NCBI RefSeq assembly: GCF_011682235.2
Contig: NZ_CP076718.1
Span: 1,575,141-1,639,140, forward strand
Reading direction: 5' to 3'
DNA length: 64,000 nucleotides
Source: Rhodocaloribacter litoris
Lineage (GTDB): Bacteria > Bacteroidota > Rhodothermia > Rhodothermales > ISCAR-4553
Below are positions 29,913 to 42,005 of the stretch, one piece after another. Positions within the stretch are counted from its first letter, which is position 1, and the number at the start of each line of letters is the position of its first letter. The notes under the pieces are model-generated. The model saw only the letters and a program-made list of their open reading frames with translations, did not search any database and was not told where the DNA came from. The position numbers were made by a program, and so were the translations under genes.

Positions 29913-31583
29913 ATGCCCGTCTTCGAACTGACCTGGATCGACCTGTTGATGGTCCTGCTCTACGTCGTCTTCATCGTGTGGGTCGGCTTTTACGTGGCCC
30001 GCAAGACCGAAACCACGGACGACTACTTCCTCGCCGGCCGCTCGCTGGTGTGGTGGCTCATCGGCTTCTCGCTCTTTGCCTCGAACGTCTCATCGAGCAC
30101 GCTGGTGGGGCTTTCGTCGAGCGCGTTCAGCAGCGGCATCGCCGTCTACAACTACGAGTGGATGGCGGCGCTGGTGCTCATCTTCTTCGTCGTCTTCTTT
30201 CTGCCCTTCTACCTGAAGACGCAGGTCTACACGATGCCCGAGTTTCTGGAGCGGCGCTACGACGCCCGGTCGCGGTACTACTTCTCGGCGCTGCTCATCT
30301 TCATGAACATCGTCATCGACACGGCGGCGGCCCTGTATGCGGGGGCGCTGGTGGTGCAGATCATCTACCCTGCCATCCCGCTATGGCAATCGGTGGTCGT
30401 GCTCGGGGTGCTGGCGGGCCTCTACACGGTGGCGGGCGGCCTGAAAGCCGTCGTCTACACGGATGCCGTGCAGGCTGTGCTCCTGATCTTCGGCGCGTGC
30501 CTGGTGTCGTTCCTGGCTTTCGAGCAGGTGGGCTCCTGGGACGCCGTCACGGCCGTGGTGCCCGAGGCGGACCTGAGCGTCGTCCTCCCGGCCGACCACC
30601 CGGTGATGCCCTGGCCCGGTCTGGTCACGGGCGTCTTCCTCCTCGGCTTCTATTTCTGGGGGACGAACCAGTTCATGGTGCAGCGCACCCTCGGCGCGAA
30701 GGACCTCAACCACGGCCGATGGGGCGCCCTCTTCGCCGGCCTGCTGAAGCTGCCCATCATCTTCATCATGGTCCTCCCCGGCATCTTTGCCCGGCTCATC
30801 TATACCCCCGAGGCACGCCCCGAGATCGCCGCCCGCCTAGCCGAGAACGCCGACCTTCTTTTCCCCACCCTGATGTTCGACCTGCTGCCCGTGGGCATCC
30901 GGGGGCTGGTCATCACGGCCCTCATCGCCGCCATCATGTCCAGCGTCGACTCCACGCTCAACTCGGCCTCGACGCTCGTCACGATGGACTTCGTCAAGAA
31001 GCTCCGGCCCGACGCCTCGAACCACACGCTGGTCGTCGTCGGGCGCGTGGTGACCTTCACCTTCATGACGCTGGCGATCCTGTGGGCCCCGCAGATCCTG
31101 CGCTTCCAGGACCTGTGGACGTATCTCCAGCAGATGCTTGCCTACCTGGCCCCGCCGGTGCTGGCGTGCTTCCTGGTGGGCGTCTTCTGGAAACGGGCCA
31201 ACCGGCACAGCGCCTTCGCCGGCCTGATCGTGGGGCACCTGGCCGCCGCCGCCATCTTCGCGCTGGCGCTGATGGACAAGCTCATCGTGCAGACCGGCCC
31301 GCTCGGCCCCCAGGAAGCCACCCTGGCCGCCGCCGGCGTCCCCGTCCTGCACTTCCTCTACCTGGCCCCGCTGCTGCTGGTCATCAGCGCCGTCACGATG
31401 GTGATCGTGAGCCTGACCGGCGAGGAGCCCGACCCGCAGGTGGTACGCGAACTGACGTGGTCGCCGGCCTTCTTCCGCGAGGAGTCGAAAGAGCTGGCCC
31501 ACCTGCCCTGGTACAAGAACTACCGCTACCAGGTCGTCGGGATGCTCGGCCTCATCGCCCTGTTCGTCGGGATGTTCTGGTGA
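29913..31583 (+). CDS. Sodium/solute symporter (SSS family), probable sugar transporter
   Basis: A 556-residue inner-membrane protein with about 14 hydrophobic helices. Family marks are TTDDYFLAGRSLVWWLIGFS near residue 36, YTVAGGLKAVVYTDAVQAVL near residue 170 and IAAIMSSVDSTLNSASTLVT near residue 340 (the SSS sodium-site region). It couples sodium entry to solute uptake. Neighbouring glycosidase, amylosucrase and trehalase genes make an alpha-glucoside or glucose the likely substrate, but that is inference. A LacI-type operator precedes it. Confidence 0.9.
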   Translation: MPVFELTWIDLLMVLLYVVFIVWVGFYVARKTETTDDYFLAGRSLVWWLIGFSLFASNVSSSTLVGLSSSAFSSGIAVYNYEWMAALVLIFFVVFFLPFYLKTQVYTMPEFLERRYDARSRYYFSALLIFMNIVIDTAAALYAGALVVQIIYPAIPLWQSVVVLGVLAGLYTVAGGLKAVVYTDAVQAVLLIFGACLVSFLAFEQVGSWDAVTAVVPEADLSVVLPADHPVMPWPGLVTGVFLLGFYFWGTNQFMVQRTLGAKDLNHGRWGALFAGLLKLPIIFIMVLPGIFARLIYTPEARPEIAARLAENADLLFPTLMFDLLPVGIRGLVITALIAAIMSSVDSTLNSASTLVTMDFVKKLRPDASNHTLVVVGRVVTFTFMTLAILWAPQILRFQDLWTYLQQMLAYLAPPVLACFLVGVFWKRANRHSAFAGLIVGHLAAAAIFALALMDKLIVQTGPLGPQEATLAAAGVPVLHFLYLAPLLLVISAVTMVIVSLTGEEPDPQVVRELTWSPAFFREESKELAHLPWYKNYRYQVVGMLGLIALFVGMFW

Positions 31584-31697: not shown

Positions 31698-33959
<2,262 letters not shown>

Positions 33960-34062
33960 ACCGGACGTCGCACGTTGCACGTTTGACGTTACACGTTGCC
34001 CTTTTTACGTCACTTCGAGATTAGATTATGACGCCGATGCTGCACGCGGACGGTGTTGTTAA

Positions 34063-34139
34063 GCCTGACGCTGTAGCCGCCCCCTTCACGGGTGCGCTCT
34101 GCCAGACGCCGGCATACCCGGGCTGAAGCCCGCGGCTAC
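34063..34139 (+). repeat. 77-bp direct repeat, copy A
   Basis: Identical to 34220-34296 except for one base. The element contains the hairpin-forming GGGCTGAAGCCC and GTAGCCGC...GCGGCTAC ends, so each copy could fold into a cruciform or RNA hairpin. Confidence 0.9.
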
Positions 34140-34219
34140 CTTCCGTCCCAGCGCCCGTTGTTGTCCCTCCGTCCACACGGCTTTACCGAACTTCGAGCGT
34201 AGATTATGACGCCCATTCA

Positions 34220-34296
34220 GCCTGATGCTGTAGCCGCCCCCTTCACGGGTGCGCTCTGCCAGACGCCGGCATACCCGGGCTGAAGCCCGCGGCTAC
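34220..34296 (+). repeat. 77-bp direct repeat, copy B
   Basis: 76 of 77 positions identical to copy A at 34063-34139. It ends 48 bases before the MFS start codon. Confidence 0.9.
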
Positions 34297-34344
34297 ATAC
34301 CGCTCGTCTCCACACCCAAAACAGCAACCCATCCGAAACGGTTC

Positions 34345-35565
34345 ATGTCCCAGTCCTGGAAAGTGCGTATCTCGCTGGCGTTGAACTTCTTCGTCTTCGC
34401 CATCCTGCTGAACACGGTCGGCATCGTCATCGCCCGGGTCATCGAGAGCTACGGGGTCGACGAGGCGGCGGCGGCGAGCCTGGAAGCGTTCAAGGACCTC
34501 TCCATTGCGGTGGCTTCCTTTCTGCTGGCCGCCTACATCCCCCGCTTCGGCTACCGGCGGTCGATGCTGGCGGGGCTGCTGGCCGTGACGCTGGCCTGCA
34601 TGCTGGTAGCCCTGGTGAGCGGTTTCTGGGTGACGCCCGTGCTCTACATGGCCATCGGCGTCAGCTTCGCCCTGATGAAAGGCGCCGTCTACGCCACCGT
34701 GGGCCTGATCACGAAGAACCAGCGGGATCACACGAGCCTGATGAACGTGCTGGAGGGAATCTTTCAGGTGGGAGCCCTCACCGGCCCGCTCTTCTTTTCC
34801 CTGGTGATCGGGCTGGACTTCTCCTGGAACCAGACCTACTGGCTCATCGCCATCGTGAGCGCGCTGGCGTTCCTGCTGCTGCTCGCCACCCCGCTCGACG
34901 AAAGCGAGGTGGCCTCGCATCCGGAACAGGCCGGCATCCTGGAGATGCTCAAGCTGCTGCGCCTGCCGATGGTGTGGGTGTTCGTCCTCTGTGCCTGGCT
35001 CTACGTGATGATCGAGCAGAGCTTCGGCACGTGGCTGCCCACCTTCCACGAGCGCATCTTCGGCCTCGCCCCCGCCATCGCCGCCGGGCTGTTGAGCGTC
35101 TATGCCGGCTCGATCGCCTTCAGCCGTTTTCTGATGGGCTATCTCTCGAAGCGCCTGCCCTGGCTGCCCACCCAGCTCGCCCTGCTCGCCGGCGCGTTCG
35201 TGCTCACCCTGAGCATCCTGCTGGTCACCGCCAGCTGGCAGCCCGGCACCATTACGGCCTGGCGCCAGATCCCCCCGCTGGCCCTCGCCTTCTCGGTGAT
35301 GGGCTTCTTCATCGGCCCCATCTACCCGACGATCATCTCCATCATCCTGAGCAAGCTGGAGAAACCCCGCCACGCCGCCATGACGGGCCTGATCATCATC
35401 TTCTCCGCCCTCGGCGGCACCACCGGCTCGTTCATCGTGGGCTTCATCTCGCGCAGCTTCAGCACCCACGACGCCTTCTATTACCCCCTGATCCCGATCA
35501 CCCTCCTGGGCCTGCTCCTGATCCCCTACAAACGCCTGACCGACCGCGCCGCCACCCTCACCTGA
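34345..35565 (+). CDS. MFS transporter
   Basis: A 406-residue inner-membrane protein with about 12 hydrophobic helices in two halves, typical of major-facilitator transporters. It starts with MSQSWKVRISLALNFFVFAI and contains a loop GYLSKRLPWLPTQ between helices of the second half. Position between amylosucrase and trehalase suggests a sugar substrate such as trehalose or sucrose, by context only. The ATG at 34345 is chosen; upstream codons in the frame translate the 77-bp repeat. Confidence 0.82.
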   Translation: MSQSWKVRISLALNFFVFAILLNTVGIVIARVIESYGVDEAAAASLEAFKDLSIAVASFLLAAYIPRFGYRRSMLAGLLAVTLACMLVALVSGFWVTPVLYMAIGVSFALMKGAVYATVGLITKNQRDHTSLMNVLEGIFQVGALTGPLFFSLVIGLDFSWNQTYWLIAIVSALAFLLLLATPLDESEVASHPEQAGILEMLKLLRLPMVWVFVLCAWLYVMIEQSFGTWLPTFHERIFGLAPAIAAGLLSVYAGSIAFSRFLMGYLSKRLPWLPTQLALLAGAFVLTLSILLVTASWQPGTITAWRQIPPLALAFSVMGFFIGPIYPTIISIILSKLEKPRHAAMTGLIIIFSALGGTTGSFIVGFISRSFSTHDAFYYPLIPITLLGLLLIPYKRLTDRAATLT

Positions 35566-35636
35566 CCGTTTTTCGTTTCTCGTTTCACGTTGCATGTTCG
35601 GCAGACTCGACGGAGTCCCCCGACCTTTTGTTTATT

Positions 35637-35654
35637 GCCACGAAGACACGAAGT
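35637..35654 (+). repeat. Dispersed 18-bp repeat, copy 4
   Basis: GCCACGAAGACACGAAGT, one change from the copy at 18180. It lies in the short spacer before the trehalase gene. Confidence 0.7.
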
Positions 35655-35727
35655 CACAAAGAGATGGTGGGTGCACGTCTCCCAGAACGTGCAACATGAA
35701 ACACGCAACCTGAAACCCGAAAGTACG

Positions 35728-37617
35728 ATGCGCCTGCACCTCCCCGTCGAAGACACGTTCCGTCGCCTGCTCGCGCAGGAGGACACGGACGGCGACCGGC
35801 AGATCACCGTCAAGGACACCGGGCCGAAGCGGTTCGTCATCGAGGGGGAGACGCCCTACGTGGTGGAGGGCACGTACGCGCTGTCGAACCTGCTGCAGGA
35901 GCTGGCGCTGGCGCGGGAGGCGGGCCGGGCCACGCTTGCGCTCGACGCCGAACGGCTCCACGAGAACCCCGTCCACCGCATCTCCCGCATGATCCGCGAG
36001 CTGTTCTGGGACGGGCTGACGCGCACCGTCGACGCCGAGGGGCTGGCCCGCACGGCCATCGATACGAAGGGCGAGGGCGCCGACCTCGACCGCCGCGCCC
36101 GCGTCTACGTGCCGGCCACCGACCCCGTGGCGCAGGACTACTTCGCCGGCGTGGCGCGGGAGCGGCCCGGGCTGGGGCTGGAGGTCATCACCCTGCCCGA
36201 ACAGATCACGCCCGAGTACGTCCTGGGCCTCAACGAGCGGCCCGGCATCCTGAGCCTGAAGCTCGTCCGCGGCGACGACGGGCGGCTGCGCGGGCTGCCG
36301 TTCGTGGTGCCGGGCGGGCGCTTCAACGAGCTCTACGGGTGGGACAGCTACTTCGAGGCCCTGGGCCTGCTCCACGACGGGCGCGTCGACCTGGCACAGG
36401 CGATGGTCGAGCACTTCCTCTACGAGATCACCCATTACGGGCAGATCCTGAACGCCAACCGGAGCTATTACCTGACCCGTTCGCAGCCGCCGTTCCTGAC
36501 GGCCATGGGGTGGGCCGTCTACGAGCACCTGCCCGCCGGCCCCGCCCGCGACGCCTGGCTCCGTGACGTGATGACGACGGCCCTCCGCGAGTACGAGACC
36601 GTGTGGACCGCCCCGCCCAAGCTGACCGAGACGGGCCTGAGCCGCTACTACGGGCGCGGCATCGGGATGCCGCCCGAGACGGAGGAGGGCCACTTCGACG
36701 CCGTGCTCCGCCCCTACGCCGAGGCCGCCGGCATGGAGCTGCGGGCCTTTGCCCGTGCCGTCCGCCGCCGCGAGATCGTCGTCCCCGAGCTCGATGCCTA
36801 CTTCGTCCACGACCGGGCGCTGCGCGAGTCCGGCCACGACAACAGCTACCGCCTCGAAGGGCGCGCCGCCCACCTCTGCACCGTCGACCTGAACGCCCTC
36901 CTCTACCGCTATGAGGTGGACCTCGCCCGCGCCATCGAGGAGGTCTTCGGCGGGCGGCTGGTGACGCCGGACGGCCGCACGCACACACCGGACGCCTGGC
37001 GGGCCCGCGCCGCGGAGCGCCGGGAGCGGCTCAACGCCCTCTGCTGGGACGCCGGCCGCGGCTTCTTCTTCGACTACGACTTCGTGGAAGGGCGGCAGAC
37101 CGGCTTCGAGAGCGCCACCACGTTCTACCCGCTGTGGGCGGGACTGGCGAGCGAGACCCAGGCCGAGGCGCTGGTCGCCCGCGCCCTGCCGCTGCTGGAG
37201 GCGCCCGGCGGGCTCGTCTCGACGACCGAAGCCTCGCGCGGGCCCGTCTCCGACGAGCGCCCGCAACGGCAGTGGGACTACCCCTTCGGCTGGCCACCCC
37301 ACCAGATCCTCGCCTGGCACGGCCTCCTCCGCTACGGCTACGCCGACGAGGCCCGCCGTCTGGCCTACCGGTGGCTCCACATGATCACGCGCAACGCCGC
37401 CGACTACAACGGCACCATCCCCGAGAAGTACGACGTCGTCCGCCGCACGCACGACGTGTTCGTCGAATACGGCAACGTGGGCACCGAGTTCGACTACATC
37501 ACCCGCGAGGGCTTCGGCTGGATGAACGCCTCGTACCAGCTCGGCCTGGACCTGCTGACGCCCCGCCTGCGCGAGGCGCTCGAAGCCGGCACGCCGGTGG
37601 AGCACCTGTTCGGCTAA
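35728..37617 (+). CDS. Alpha,alpha-trehalase of the neutral (fungal Nth1) type, GH37
   Basis: A cytoplasmic 629-residue enzyme hydrolysing trehalose to two glucoses. Trehalase signature 1 is PGGRFNELYGWDSYF (residues 195-209) and signature 2 is QWDYPFGWPPHQ. The general-acid region reads RESGHDNSYRLEGRA, the fungal neutral form, rather than the ESGWDFSSRW of E. coli TreA/TreF. Residues 15-34 (AQEDTDGDRQITVKDTGPKR) match the EF-hand-like Ca-binding loop of yeast Nth1. No phosphoregulatory N-terminal tail is present. The stop codon overlaps the convergent DoxX stop by three bases. Confidence 0.93.
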   Translation: MRLHLPVEDTFRRLLAQEDTDGDRQITVKDTGPKRFVIEGETPYVVEGTYALSNLLQELALAREAGRATLALDAERLHENPVHRISRMIRELFWDGLTRTVDAEGLARTAIDTKGEGADLDRRARVYVPATDPVAQDYFAGVARERPGLGLEVITLPEQITPEYVLGLNERPGILSLKLVRGDDGRLRGLPFVVPGGRFNELYGWDSYFEALGLLHDGRVDLAQAMVEHFLYEITHYGQILNANRSYYLTRSQPPFLTAMGWAVYEHLPAGPARDAWLRDVMTTALREYETVWTAPPKLTETGLSRYYGRGIGMPPETEEGHFDAVLRPYAEAAGMELRAFARAVRRREIVVPELDAYFVHDRALRESGHDNSYRLEGRAAHLCTVDLNALLYRYEVDLARAIEEVFGGRLVTPDGRTHTPDAWRARAAERRERLNALCWDAGRGFFFDYDFVEGRQTGFESATTFYPLWAGLASETQAEALVARALPLLEAPGGLVSTTEASRGPVSDERPQRQWDYPFGWPPHQILAWHGLLRYGYADEARRLAYRWLHMITRNAADYNGTIPEKYDVVRRTHDVFVEYGNVGTEFDYITREGFGWMNASYQLGLDLLTPRLREALEAGTPVEHLFG

Positions 37618-39534: not shown

Positions 39535-39671
39535 GCCGGTTCGCCAAAAGCCCGGCAAGGGTGCAAAAACCGCGCAAAGCTCACAAACCCGGGACCGCAA
39601 AGCTGTAACTTGCGTCGCCGGGGTCTCGTGTAGCCCGAAAGCGAATCACCGGAACACAGCCTTTGCCCGAC

Positions 39672-40688
39672 ATGCTGCGTTTTCTCTGCCCGCTCCTGCT
39701 GCTCCTGATCTTTCCCGCCGCTACCATGGCGCAGGGACTCGACCTGACCGCCGGCGGCGTCGGGCTCGGCCTCGGCGACGTGCCGCGGGTCACGGGGATC
39801 CGCCTCAACTACCGGGACCGCCATCTGGAGCGGGTCAACGGGCTCAACGTCACGCTGTGGTACCCGTACCATCCGGCCGGCGGCACGGTCAACGGCGTGG
39901 CGGTCGGCTTGCCGCTGACGGGGGCACGGCGCGTCCACGGCCTCACGCTCGGGCTGGCCGGTGCCAGCGCAGACGAGCGGCTGACCGGCGTCATGGTTGG
40001 CGGCATCGGCCTCGGCTCCGGCGAAGACATCACCGGCCTCGGCCTGGCAGCGGCCGTGATCGGCAGCGGGCGCGACATCACGGGGCTCATGGTCGGCGGC
40101 TTCGGCGTCGGCAGCGGACGCAACCTGAGCGGCGTCATGGCGGCCTCCTTCGGCGTGGGCGCCGGCGGCAACCTGACCGGACTCTTCGCGGGTGGCTTCG
40201 GCGTCGGTGCCGGCGGTGACGTGCAGGGTATCGTCCTGGGCGGCCTCGGCGTGGGCACCGGCGGCAACCTGACGGGCATCGCCCTGGGCGGCCTCGGCGT
40301 GGGCACCGGCGGCAACCTGACGGGCATCGCCCTGGGCGGCCTCGGCGTCGGCACCGGCGGCACCCTGCGCGGCCTCGGCGTGGGCGGCCTCGGCGTGGGG
40401 GCCTCTCGCGTCGAAGGGGCCCTCGTAGCCGGCGTGGCGGCCGGCGCCGGCGCGATGACGGGCCTGGCCCTGGCCCCCGGCTATTTCAACCTCGGACGCG
40501 ACGGCCTCTTCCGGGGCCTTGCCGTCAGCGCCTTCAACCACATCCGGGGCGAGCAGCGCGGGCTGACGATCGGGCTGTTCAACTATGCCCGTCGCCTCTA
40601 CGGCCTCCAGATCGGGCTGCTCAACTATGCCGGCAACAACCCGAAGGGGCTCCGGCTCCTGCCCCTCGTCAACCTGCACTTCGATTAG
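39672..40688 (+). CDS. Exported 16-residue-repeat surface protein (LA_2272-like)
   Basis: A 338-residue protein with a signal peptide (LLLLLIFPAATMA). About nine 16-residue units with consensus G(L/I)xxGGxGVGxGGNLT run between residues 106 and 250. The C-terminus GLTIGLFNYARRLYGLQIGL resembles the surface-repeat family described in Leptospira (LA_2272). It is expected to be an outer-membrane beta structure. Two DNA units of 48 bases (40236-40283 and 40284-40331) are identical, showing recent duplication. The ATG at 39672 is preferred over a TTG at 39663. Its stop overlaps the convergent polyketide-synthase stop. Confidence 0.7.
   Translation: MLRFLCPLLLLLIFPAATMAQGLDLTAGGVGLGLGDVPRVTGIRLNYRDRHLERVNGLNVTLWYPYHPAGGTVNGVAVGLPLTGARRVHGLTLGLAGASADERLTGVMVGGIGLGSGEDITGLGLAAAVIGSGRDITGLMVGGFGVGSGRNLSGVMAASFGVGAGGNLTGLFAGGFGVGAGGDVQGIVLGGLGVGTGGNLTGIALGGLGVGTGGNLTGIALGGLGVGTGGTLRGLGVGGLGVGASRVEGALVAGVAAGAGAMTGLALAPGYFNLGRDGLFRGLAVSAFNHIRGEQRGLTIGLFNYARRLYGLQIGLLNYAGNNPKGLRLLPLVNLHFD
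40236..40379 (+). repeat. 48-bp coding tandem repeat in the surface-protein gene
   Basis: Units at 40236-40283 and 40284-40331 are identical. A third at 40332-40379 has diverged in its second half. Each unit encodes one 16-residue protein repeat. Confidence 0.85.
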
Positions 40689-41806
40689 CCGGCCCCGCGT
40701 CGCCACAGGCACCCTTCGAGCGTAAGCCCCGGTCCGAAGGCCACGGCCAGGCCCGTCCGGTAGCCGGCCTCCCCCCGCGCCCGCGCCGCCTCATGCCGGT
40801 CGAGAAACCGCTTGAGAACGAAAAAGATGGTGGGCGAGCTCATGTTGCCGTGCAGGCGGAGAACCTCCAGGCTGTCGTGCACGGCCTCGTCGGACAGGCC
40901 CAGCACCTCCTGCGCCCGCTCGACGATGGCCCGGCCGCCGGGATGGATCGCCCAGAAGTCGACGTCGCCGGGGGTGAGGCCGTGCCGTCCCAGCAGGGCC
41001 TCGACGAAAGCCGGCAACTGCCGCGCCAGCACGTCGGGCACCCGGCTGGAAAGCCCCATGAGGAAACCATTGTCGCCCACGTCCCACGTCATGTCATCCA
41101 GCGAATCCCCGTCGAGGAGGCAATGATCGCCGGCATAGGTGAGCCGCCCTCCGGCGTCGGGACGGGCTGCCAGCACCGCCGCCGCCGCTCCATCGGAGAA
41201 AAGCGCGTTGATGACGGCACTTTCGAGCGTCTGGCTTGCCTGGAAATGCAGCGTGCAGAGTTCGACGCAGACGACGAGCACGCGGGCCGCCGGATCGCTC
41301 CGGCAGAACCCGTGCGCCAGGCGCAACGCGTTGAAGGCGGCATAGCAGCCCATGAAGCCGACGATCACGCGCCGGGTATCCGGGCGCATGCCCAGACGCC
41401 GGACCAGCTCGACATCCAGCCCCGGCGCGAAGAAGCCCGTGCAACTGACGGCAACGACGTGCGTCACCGCCTCCGGTGCCAGGCCCGCCTGCCGGAGCAC
41501 CGCACGGGCCACCTGCTCGGCCAGCGGAACGGCTGCCTCCCGGTATTTCCGGTTCCGTGCCGCCGTCGTCGGCTCGGGGCGGAGCGACCAGTTCGGCGGG
41601 AAAAAGGTCCAGTCCGCCGGCTCGCGCACGTAATCCTCCACGCACGAATAGCGGTAGTCGATGCCGGAGCGCGCGTAGAGTTGCGGGATGCGCCGGCGGA
41701 TACCCTCGGGCTGGCTGTCGACGCGCTGCATGAACGACGCCGCATAGGCCTGCGACCGCCGCAACGGCGGGTTAGCGGTAGCGATGGCTTCGAGCGTCGT
41801 CGGCAT
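40685..41806 (-). CDS. Type III polyketide synthase (chalcone/stilbene-synthase superfamily)
   Basis: A 373-residue homodimeric ketosynthase-like enzyme that extends a CoA starter with malonyl-CoA. The catalytic triad is visible: Cys154 in GFMGCYAAFNALRLAH, His288 in DFWAIHPGGRAIVE and Asn321 in RLHGNMSSPTI. The closing GFGPG loop is AFGPGLTLEGC. Starter and product cannot be deduced; bacterial relatives make alkylpyrones, alkylresorcinols or tetrahydroxynaphthalene. No methyltransferase or oxidase gene is adjacent to form an obvious pathway. The upstream spacer is filled with short tandem repeats. Confidence 0.92.
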   Translation of the reverse strand: MPTTLEAIATANPPLRRSQAYAASFMQRVDSQPEGIRRRIPQLYARSGIDYRYSCVEDYVREPADWTFFPPNWSLRPEPTTAARNRKYREAAVPLAEQVARAVLRQAGLAPEAVTHVVAVSCTGFFAPGLDVELVRRLGMRPDTRRVIVGFMGCYAAFNALRLAHGFCRSDPAARVLVVCVELCTLHFQASQTLESAVINALFSDGAAAAVLAARPDAGGRLTYAGDHCLLDGDSLDDMTWDVGDNGFLMGLSSRVPDVLARQLPAFVEALLGRHGLTPGDVDFWAIHPGGRAIVERAQEVLGLSDEAVHDSLEVLRLHGNMSSPTIFFVLKRFLDRHEAARARGEAGYRTGLAVAFGPGLTLEGCLWRRGAG

Positions 41807-41838
41807 GGCGTATTACGTTGCGCGTTGCGCGTTTACAC

Positions 41839-41918
41839 GTTCCACGTTGCGTGTTGGCATGTTCCACGTTGCGCGTTGGCATGTTCCACGTTGCGCGTTG
41901 GCATGTTCCACGTTGCAC
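41839..41918 (+). repeat. 22-bp tandem repeat upstream of the polyketide synthase
   Basis: Units GTTCCACGTTGCGCGTTGGCAT at 41839-41860 (one variant base), 41861-41882 and 41883-41904, with a partial fourth to 41918. It lies 33 bases before the polyketide-synthase start codon, on the 5' side of that gene. Confidence 0.9.
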
Positions 41919-42005
41919 CTTGATGTGGAAAAGGGCCTTCGACGCGTCGCATCACATCCGGGCGTTCATACCAACGTGTAACTTTCCAACGTGTACCGTG
42001 CAACG

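Follow-up and report, generated by a model that had tools for sequence, protein, structure and literature searches.

The window analysed here, a 64,000-nucleotide stretch of the Rhodocaloribacter litoris genome, encodes a bacterial trehalase that is colinear with the yeast neutral trehalase Nth1, retains its Ca-binding domain, lacks its regulatory tail and lies directly downstream of an MFS transporter gene. Our data favour, at a probability of roughly 0.7, a reading in which a cytosolic alpha,alpha-trehalase of the Nth1 type acts together with an MFS trehalose importer, its N-terminal domain would be held docked by calcium, its activity would be constitutively on, and the bacterial family to which it belongs would be the source of the fungal enzyme.

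The reading frame at 35728-37617 on the plus strand is open and contains all the peptides quoted in an earlier note, made from the sequence alone, which had described the protein as following the plan of Nth1 throughout. That description is borne out by phmmer, in which the best match among PDB sequences was yeast Nth1 over residues 7-624 (E 1.8e-197, 660 bits), followed by E. coli Tre37A (E 6.4e-40, 140 bits), and by a pairwise identity to Nth1 of 50.1% over 635 aa. The ATG start is the one found in the close homologs L033, L034, L038 and L040; a longer frame from a TTG at 35590 was dropped because translation of the homologs begins at the ATG and the added stretch consists of repeat-like intergenic DNA. 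The protein belongs to GH37, with a PF01204 score of 468.8 bits against a Pfam cut-off of 21, both family signatures and the catalytic Asp and Glu, and residues 12-36 match PF07492, the Ca2+-binding domain of neutral trehalases, at 42.7 bits (Pfam cut-off 25). The two catalytic residues align with D478 and E674 (5jta numbering, as for all Nth1 residues below), which we take to be the catalytic pair of Nth1. Residue 7 aligns with Nth1 residue 102, so that the protein begins at about residue 96 of Nth1 and the first ~95 residues of the yeast enzyme are absent. The alignment thus agrees with the earlier note that the tail is missing: the PKA sites and 14-3-3 motifs of the fungal N-terminus (Ser60 and Ser83 in Nth1) have no counterpart, and the enzyme is therefore not filed in the class of fungal regulated neutral trehalases. 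It also fell short of the NCBIfam cut-offs for TreF (178 bits against 512) and TreA (169 against 941 and 165 against 560 bits). Coordinates of the trehalase, its elements and the neighbouring genes are collected in the table.

Table. Trehalase gene, elements of the encoded protein and co-directional neighbours (positions in the window)
Feature	Position	Strand	Remarks
Sodium:solute symporter, first gene of the co-directional run	29913..31583	+	PF00474 285 bits
Amylosucrase-type GH13 with C-terminal CBM20, co-directional neighbour	31698..33959	+	620 bits to amylosucrase 3ucq; PF00686 47 bits
MFS transporter, proposed trehalose permease	34345..35565	+	PF07690 118.5 bits
MFS-trehalase gap, 162 bp, intergenic-repeat-like sequence	35566..35727	.	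only 33 bp in nearest relative L033
Neutral-trehalase-type GH37 trehalase	35728..37617	+	629 aa, no signal peptide; PF01204 468.8 bits, PF07492 42.7 bits, Nth1 50%
EF-hand-like Ca loop EDTDGDRQITVKDTGPK, residues 18-34	35779..35829	+	PF07492; putative ligand codons D19, D21, D23, Q25, D30
GH37 signature 1, PGGRFNELYGWDSY, residues 195-208	36310..36351	+	block invariant except L202
Catalytic acid D371 in ESGHDNSYRLEG	36838..36840	+	aligns with Nth1 D478; invariant, 28 homologs
GH37 signature 2, QWDYPFGWPP, residues 515-524	37270..37299	+	homolog alignment
Catalytic base E566 in IPEKYDVV	37423..37425	+	aligns with Nth1 E674; invariant in homologs
Putative active-site lid VEYGNVGTEFD, residues 579-589	37462..37494	+	highly conserved, pLDDT <50; Nth1 counterpart 689-699

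Comparison with characterized trehalases places the enzyme closest to Saccharomyces cerevisiae Nth1 (PDB 5n6n, 5jta, 5nis and 5m4a), with which it shares the catalytic residues, the EF-hand-like loop and a fold with a docked Ca domain; it differs from Nth1 in lacking the PKA/14-3-3 tail, in having D rather than N at the third ligand, in its bacterial host and in its pairing with an MFS gene. With the bacterial GH37 enzymes TreA and TreF (E. coli; PDB 2jf4) it has in common the catalytic barrel, both signatures and both catalytic residues. However, TreA/TreF proteins of the same phylum are only ~33% identical to it over the barrel, lack the Ca domain and carry ESGWDFSSRW in place of ESGHDNSYRLEG, just as the earlier note had stated for bacterial TreA and TreF. 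The sister group is a Rhodothermus-type trehalase, found in five genomes of one Rhodothermales genus and in relatives, which is mostly 45-47% identical over residues 191-603, has no Ca domain (its matches begin at profile position 85-94 or later) and bears signal peptides in L019 and L021. A trehalase of R. marinus was described by Jorge et al. 2007, to judge from its citation in PMC4731906, and the Rhodothermus-type loci presumably correspond to that enzyme. FsTreA of Fusarium sacchari (PMC13274424) is likewise a trehalose-specific GH37 enzyme; unlike the protein described here, it has no Ca domain, is secreted and Ca-independent, and is given in that paper as 30% identical to Nth1. Elsewhere in the R. 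litoris genome, a second weak trehalase match (C1:1469854, 501 aa) covers only part of the barrel and was set aside as probably of the GH63/mannosylglycerate-hydrolase type. No relative of the trehalase was found in viral contigs, and no RNA family was found around its gene.

The protein is not a singularity: the Nth1-type trehalase is a patchy bacterial family spanning at least seven phyla. Scanning public genomes turned up 270 related stretches, and the 80 best of these were retrieved; within the phylum, 297 genomes contained 15 full-length homologs, counting that of the window. Hosts include Rhodothermales, Gemmatimonadota, Calditrichota, Ignavibacteriota, Flavobacteriaceae, Neomarinimicrobiota, Methylomirabilis and Riflebacteria, and the family was rare wherever it was counted (3 of 114 Rhodothermales, 3 of 249 Gemmatimonadota, 3 of 40 Calditrichota and 2 of 40 genomes of the Riflebacteria phylum); another 13 Rhodothermales genomes hold the different, Ca-less trehalase, whose match starts at profile position 85 or later. 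Identities of the homologs to the window trehalase range from 49 to 85%, the closest being from another genome of its family (85%) and then from three Gemmatimonadota (74-75%). Since L037, also from Rhodothermales, is sister to the window trehalase and these closest relatives, the simpler reading is that the gene passed from Rhodothermales to Gemmatimonadota.

The earlier note had singled out D19, D21, D23 and D30 as a retained Ca loop, and these residues proved to be exactly right. In alignment with Nth1, D19, D21, D23, Q25 and D30 correspond to D114, D116, N118, Q120 and D125, presumably the ligand set that holds calcium in the yeast enzyme. Among 94 bacterial homologs, D19, D23, I26, T27 and D30 are invariant, and position 21 has D in 90 of them and N in the other four. 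Only 94 of the 629 columns of the family are invariant, and five of the seven invariant residues within positions 1-66 fall in the loop, a pattern of sequence conservation that strongly indicates selection on this loop. The segment from D30 to K34 spans five residues in Nth1, in the window protein and in all cytosolic forms, and eleven or twelve in the nine deepest exported forms, which contain an insert of 6-7 residues.

The predicted structure of the trehalase (pLDDT 91.0) matched 14-3-3-bound Nth1 best among PDB entries (5n6n_C, TM 0.92 over 646 columns), then Nth1 alone (TM 0.80 over 560 columns, for structures that hold ~550 residues), and Tre37A at 0.51-0.54, figures that may in part echo the Nth1 entries in the AlphaFold training set. 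The pLDDT falls below 50 in only two segments. One of them, residues 579-589, is nevertheless highly conserved and aligns with Nth1 689-699; we regard it as a putative active-site lid. Our data suggest a model whereby the MFS protein would import trehalose into the cell and the cytosolic trehalase would split it into two glucoses, D371 being the acid and E566 the base of the reaction. The N-terminal domain of ~60 residues would owe its folding and its docking against the catalytic barrel to one calcium ion bound in the EF-hand-like loop, and this docking would in turn order the active-site lid. In Nth1, the Ca ion stabilizes the contact of the Ca domain with a flexible part of the catalytic domain, and the tail bears the PKA and 14-3-3 sites (PMC9523730, PMC10847541); in yeast, the docked arrangement is stabilized by 14-3-3 bound to the phosphorylated tail. 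The bacterial enzyme would hold the docked state by itself with bound calcium and would need no switch, and because it has no tail it is expected to be constitutively on.

Whether calcium might instead be a true signal has to be weighed against this model. The earlier note had proposed Ca control uncoupled from phosphorylation. On this reading, changes in free Ca2+ would switch the cytosolic enzyme, as in an ancestral form of the yeast regulation, and the perfect retention of the ligands, the stabilizing role of the ion in Nth1 (PMC10847541, PMC9523730) and a lid that is conserved but of low confidence in the model are all consistent with such control. However, the loop is equally invariant in family members with Sec or lipoprotein signals, which are exported to where calcium is plentiful and cannot signal, and our analysis identified no regulatory partner; we therefore consider this explanation unlikely and do not favour Ca control of the bacterial trehalase. 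The same invariance in exported forms suggests that the loop has a structural and constitutive role rather than a regulatory one. A loop that persists in bacteria as an evolutionary relic and has lost its calcium is a very improbable alternative; the N at position 21 in four of the 94 homologs lends it something, but near-total invariance at 49-85% identity, including five of the seven invariants in the first 66 positions, would require active selection.

The proposed docked and constitutive enzyme is accompanied by a transporter. A homolog of the window's MFS protein is encoded directly upstream, on the same strand, in all 73 family members called cytosolic for which the flank is long enough, and in none of the 19 members called exported. 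Export was assigned from simple hydropathy, and the call for L004/L043 (one gene) is doubtful. Fisher's exact p for this association, 4e-20, is overstated by near-duplicate loci and by a sample picked for similarity to the window protein; four of four phylogenetically independent contrasts agree with it, a number at which a sign test cannot reach 0.05. Of 66 measured MFS-trehalase gaps (median -1 bp), 55 are at most 113 bp, and most are overlaps or a few bases, which implies co-translation; the other eleven, at ~1.2 kb, equal the length of the MFS gene and were set aside as an artefact of the starting point of the stop search. No sequence relative of the MFS protein was found in the PDB. No OtsA, TreS or TreY scored above the cut-off in the genome, in a search that did not extend to TreT and other trehalose-making routes, so that the trehalose substrate is more likely imported than made in the cell. 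Together, the MFS protein and the trehalase most likely form a trehalose import-and-hydrolysis module, the substrate being suggested by this genomic context.

The trehalase gene is the last of a co-directional run that begins with a sodium:solute symporter and continues with an amylosucrase-type GH13 with CBM20 and the MFS gene. A TreS-like identity for the GH13 protein was considered and rejected in favour of amylosucrase; its matches to solved amylosucrases stop near residue 655 and the CBM20 occupies residues 665-752, so that it looks like a fusion. In the exported lipoprotein forms L097 and L105, the directly upstream position of the MFS gene is taken by a sodium:solute symporter, as expected if the sugar passing through the inner membrane were glucose and not trehalose. 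In the window, the interval from the amylosucrase gene to the MFS gene contains two 87-nt direct repeats (34059-34145 and 34216-34302), 95% identical and with an internal GTAGCCGCGGGCTTCAGCCCG-like palindrome; the mechanically called GTG start of the MFS frame (34249) falls inside the second copy, and the ATG at 34345 is the likelier start. The repeat GCCACGAAGACACGAAG (14732, 18180, 18599 and 35637) has five matches in the window at two or fewer mismatches, where 0.03 would be expected, and three of its four exact copies in the genome lie in the window. Immediately upstream of the gene for a type III polyketide synthase (40685-41806, minus strand) are tandem 22-nt units (GTTCCACGTTGCGCGTTGGCAT; 41817-41926), and ACGTTGCATGTT motifs at 33972 and 35587 resemble them. 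The window also encodes a 341-aa glycine-rich repeat protein (VGGLGVGTGGNLTGIALGG; 39663-40688, plus strand) without a Pfam match, perhaps a beta-repeat surface protein, and, divergent from the symporter gene, a 944-aa protein with a six-hairpin glycosidase region (PF22422, PF04685; 26962-29796, minus strand).

The relation to the fungal enzyme was examined in three maximum-likelihood trees, one of 68 rows (IQ-TREE, LG+C20), in which fungi are represented by one long-branched sequence, yeast Nth1. The GH37 tree that the earlier note had suggested as a check placed the window trehalase with Nth1 and not within TreF: TreA/TreF and the Rhodothermus type fall outside a clade of bacterial Nth-type enzymes plus Nth1 (100/99), exported forms from several phyla lie at the base of this clade, and Nth1 itself is found inside the next clade together with cytosolic bacteria (100/99), a grouping that recurs under the two other samplings. 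The nearest bacterial relatives of Nth1 vary among the trees. Two of the three AU tests rejected a bacteria-only clade without Nth1 (p=0.028 and 0.0295); the third, with the Rhodothermus type as the only outgroup, did not (p=0.303). Both the Nth1 and the outgroup branches are long, and long-branch attraction would draw Nth1 toward the outgroup, so the observed nesting runs against that bias; the length of the D30-K34 segment, in which Nth1 resembles the cytosolic forms, agrees with the nesting.

These trees bear on the alternative that bacteria obtained the gene from a fungus and then spread it among bacterial phyla. The patchy distribution (3/249 Gemmatimonadota, 3/114 Rhodothermales, 3/40 Calditrichota) is of the kind that horizontal transfer typically leaves, and the AU value of 0.303 leaves fungal sisterhood standing; but the bacterial forms have diverged deeply across phyla, with exported forms among the basal ones, and the position of Nth1 among cytosolic bacteria, the two AU rejections and the direction of the expected long-branch bias all oppose it. 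We therefore regard fungal-to-bacterial transfer as improbable and rejected it as the main account. Of the two possibilities raised in the earlier note, an inter-domain transfer or an ancestor of the fungal enzyme, the ancestral one fares better, tempered by the single unsupportive AU test. The nesting and the two rejections make bacteria to fungi the likelier direction, and yeast neutral trehalase probably descends from the bacterial family, in which case fungi would have taken the bacterial enzyme and then added the tail. A fuller scenario, to which we give about an even chance, is that the Ca domain had a bacterial origin, probably as part of an exported trehalase with structural calcium, that it entered the cytosol along with an MFS trehalose permease, and that fungi took up this cytosolic form and made Ca-dependent docking into a phosphorylation/14-3-3 switch.

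Regulation by Ca and 14-3-3 has been presented as separating yeast Nth1 from its prokaryotic counterparts (PMC10847541), and within GH37 a review of the bacterial enzymes recognizes only TreA and TreF (PMC10969515); a Polaribacter GH37 trehalase is upregulated 4.7-fold on algal exometabolites (PMC9870897). We found no description of a bacterial class of trehalases with the Ca domain (PF07492) in the open-licence literature, and what is new here is chiefly how widely the family occurs, its association with an MFS gene and the direction in which the enzyme probably descended. With the Ca domain of Nth1 and no tail, the bacterial enzymes offer a natural 'before' state in which the role of calcium itself may be studied, and also allow one to ask how the allosteric 14-3-3 switch was built. 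In addition, the strict link between localization and an upstream MFS gene points to an uncharacterized candidate family of trehalose permeases.
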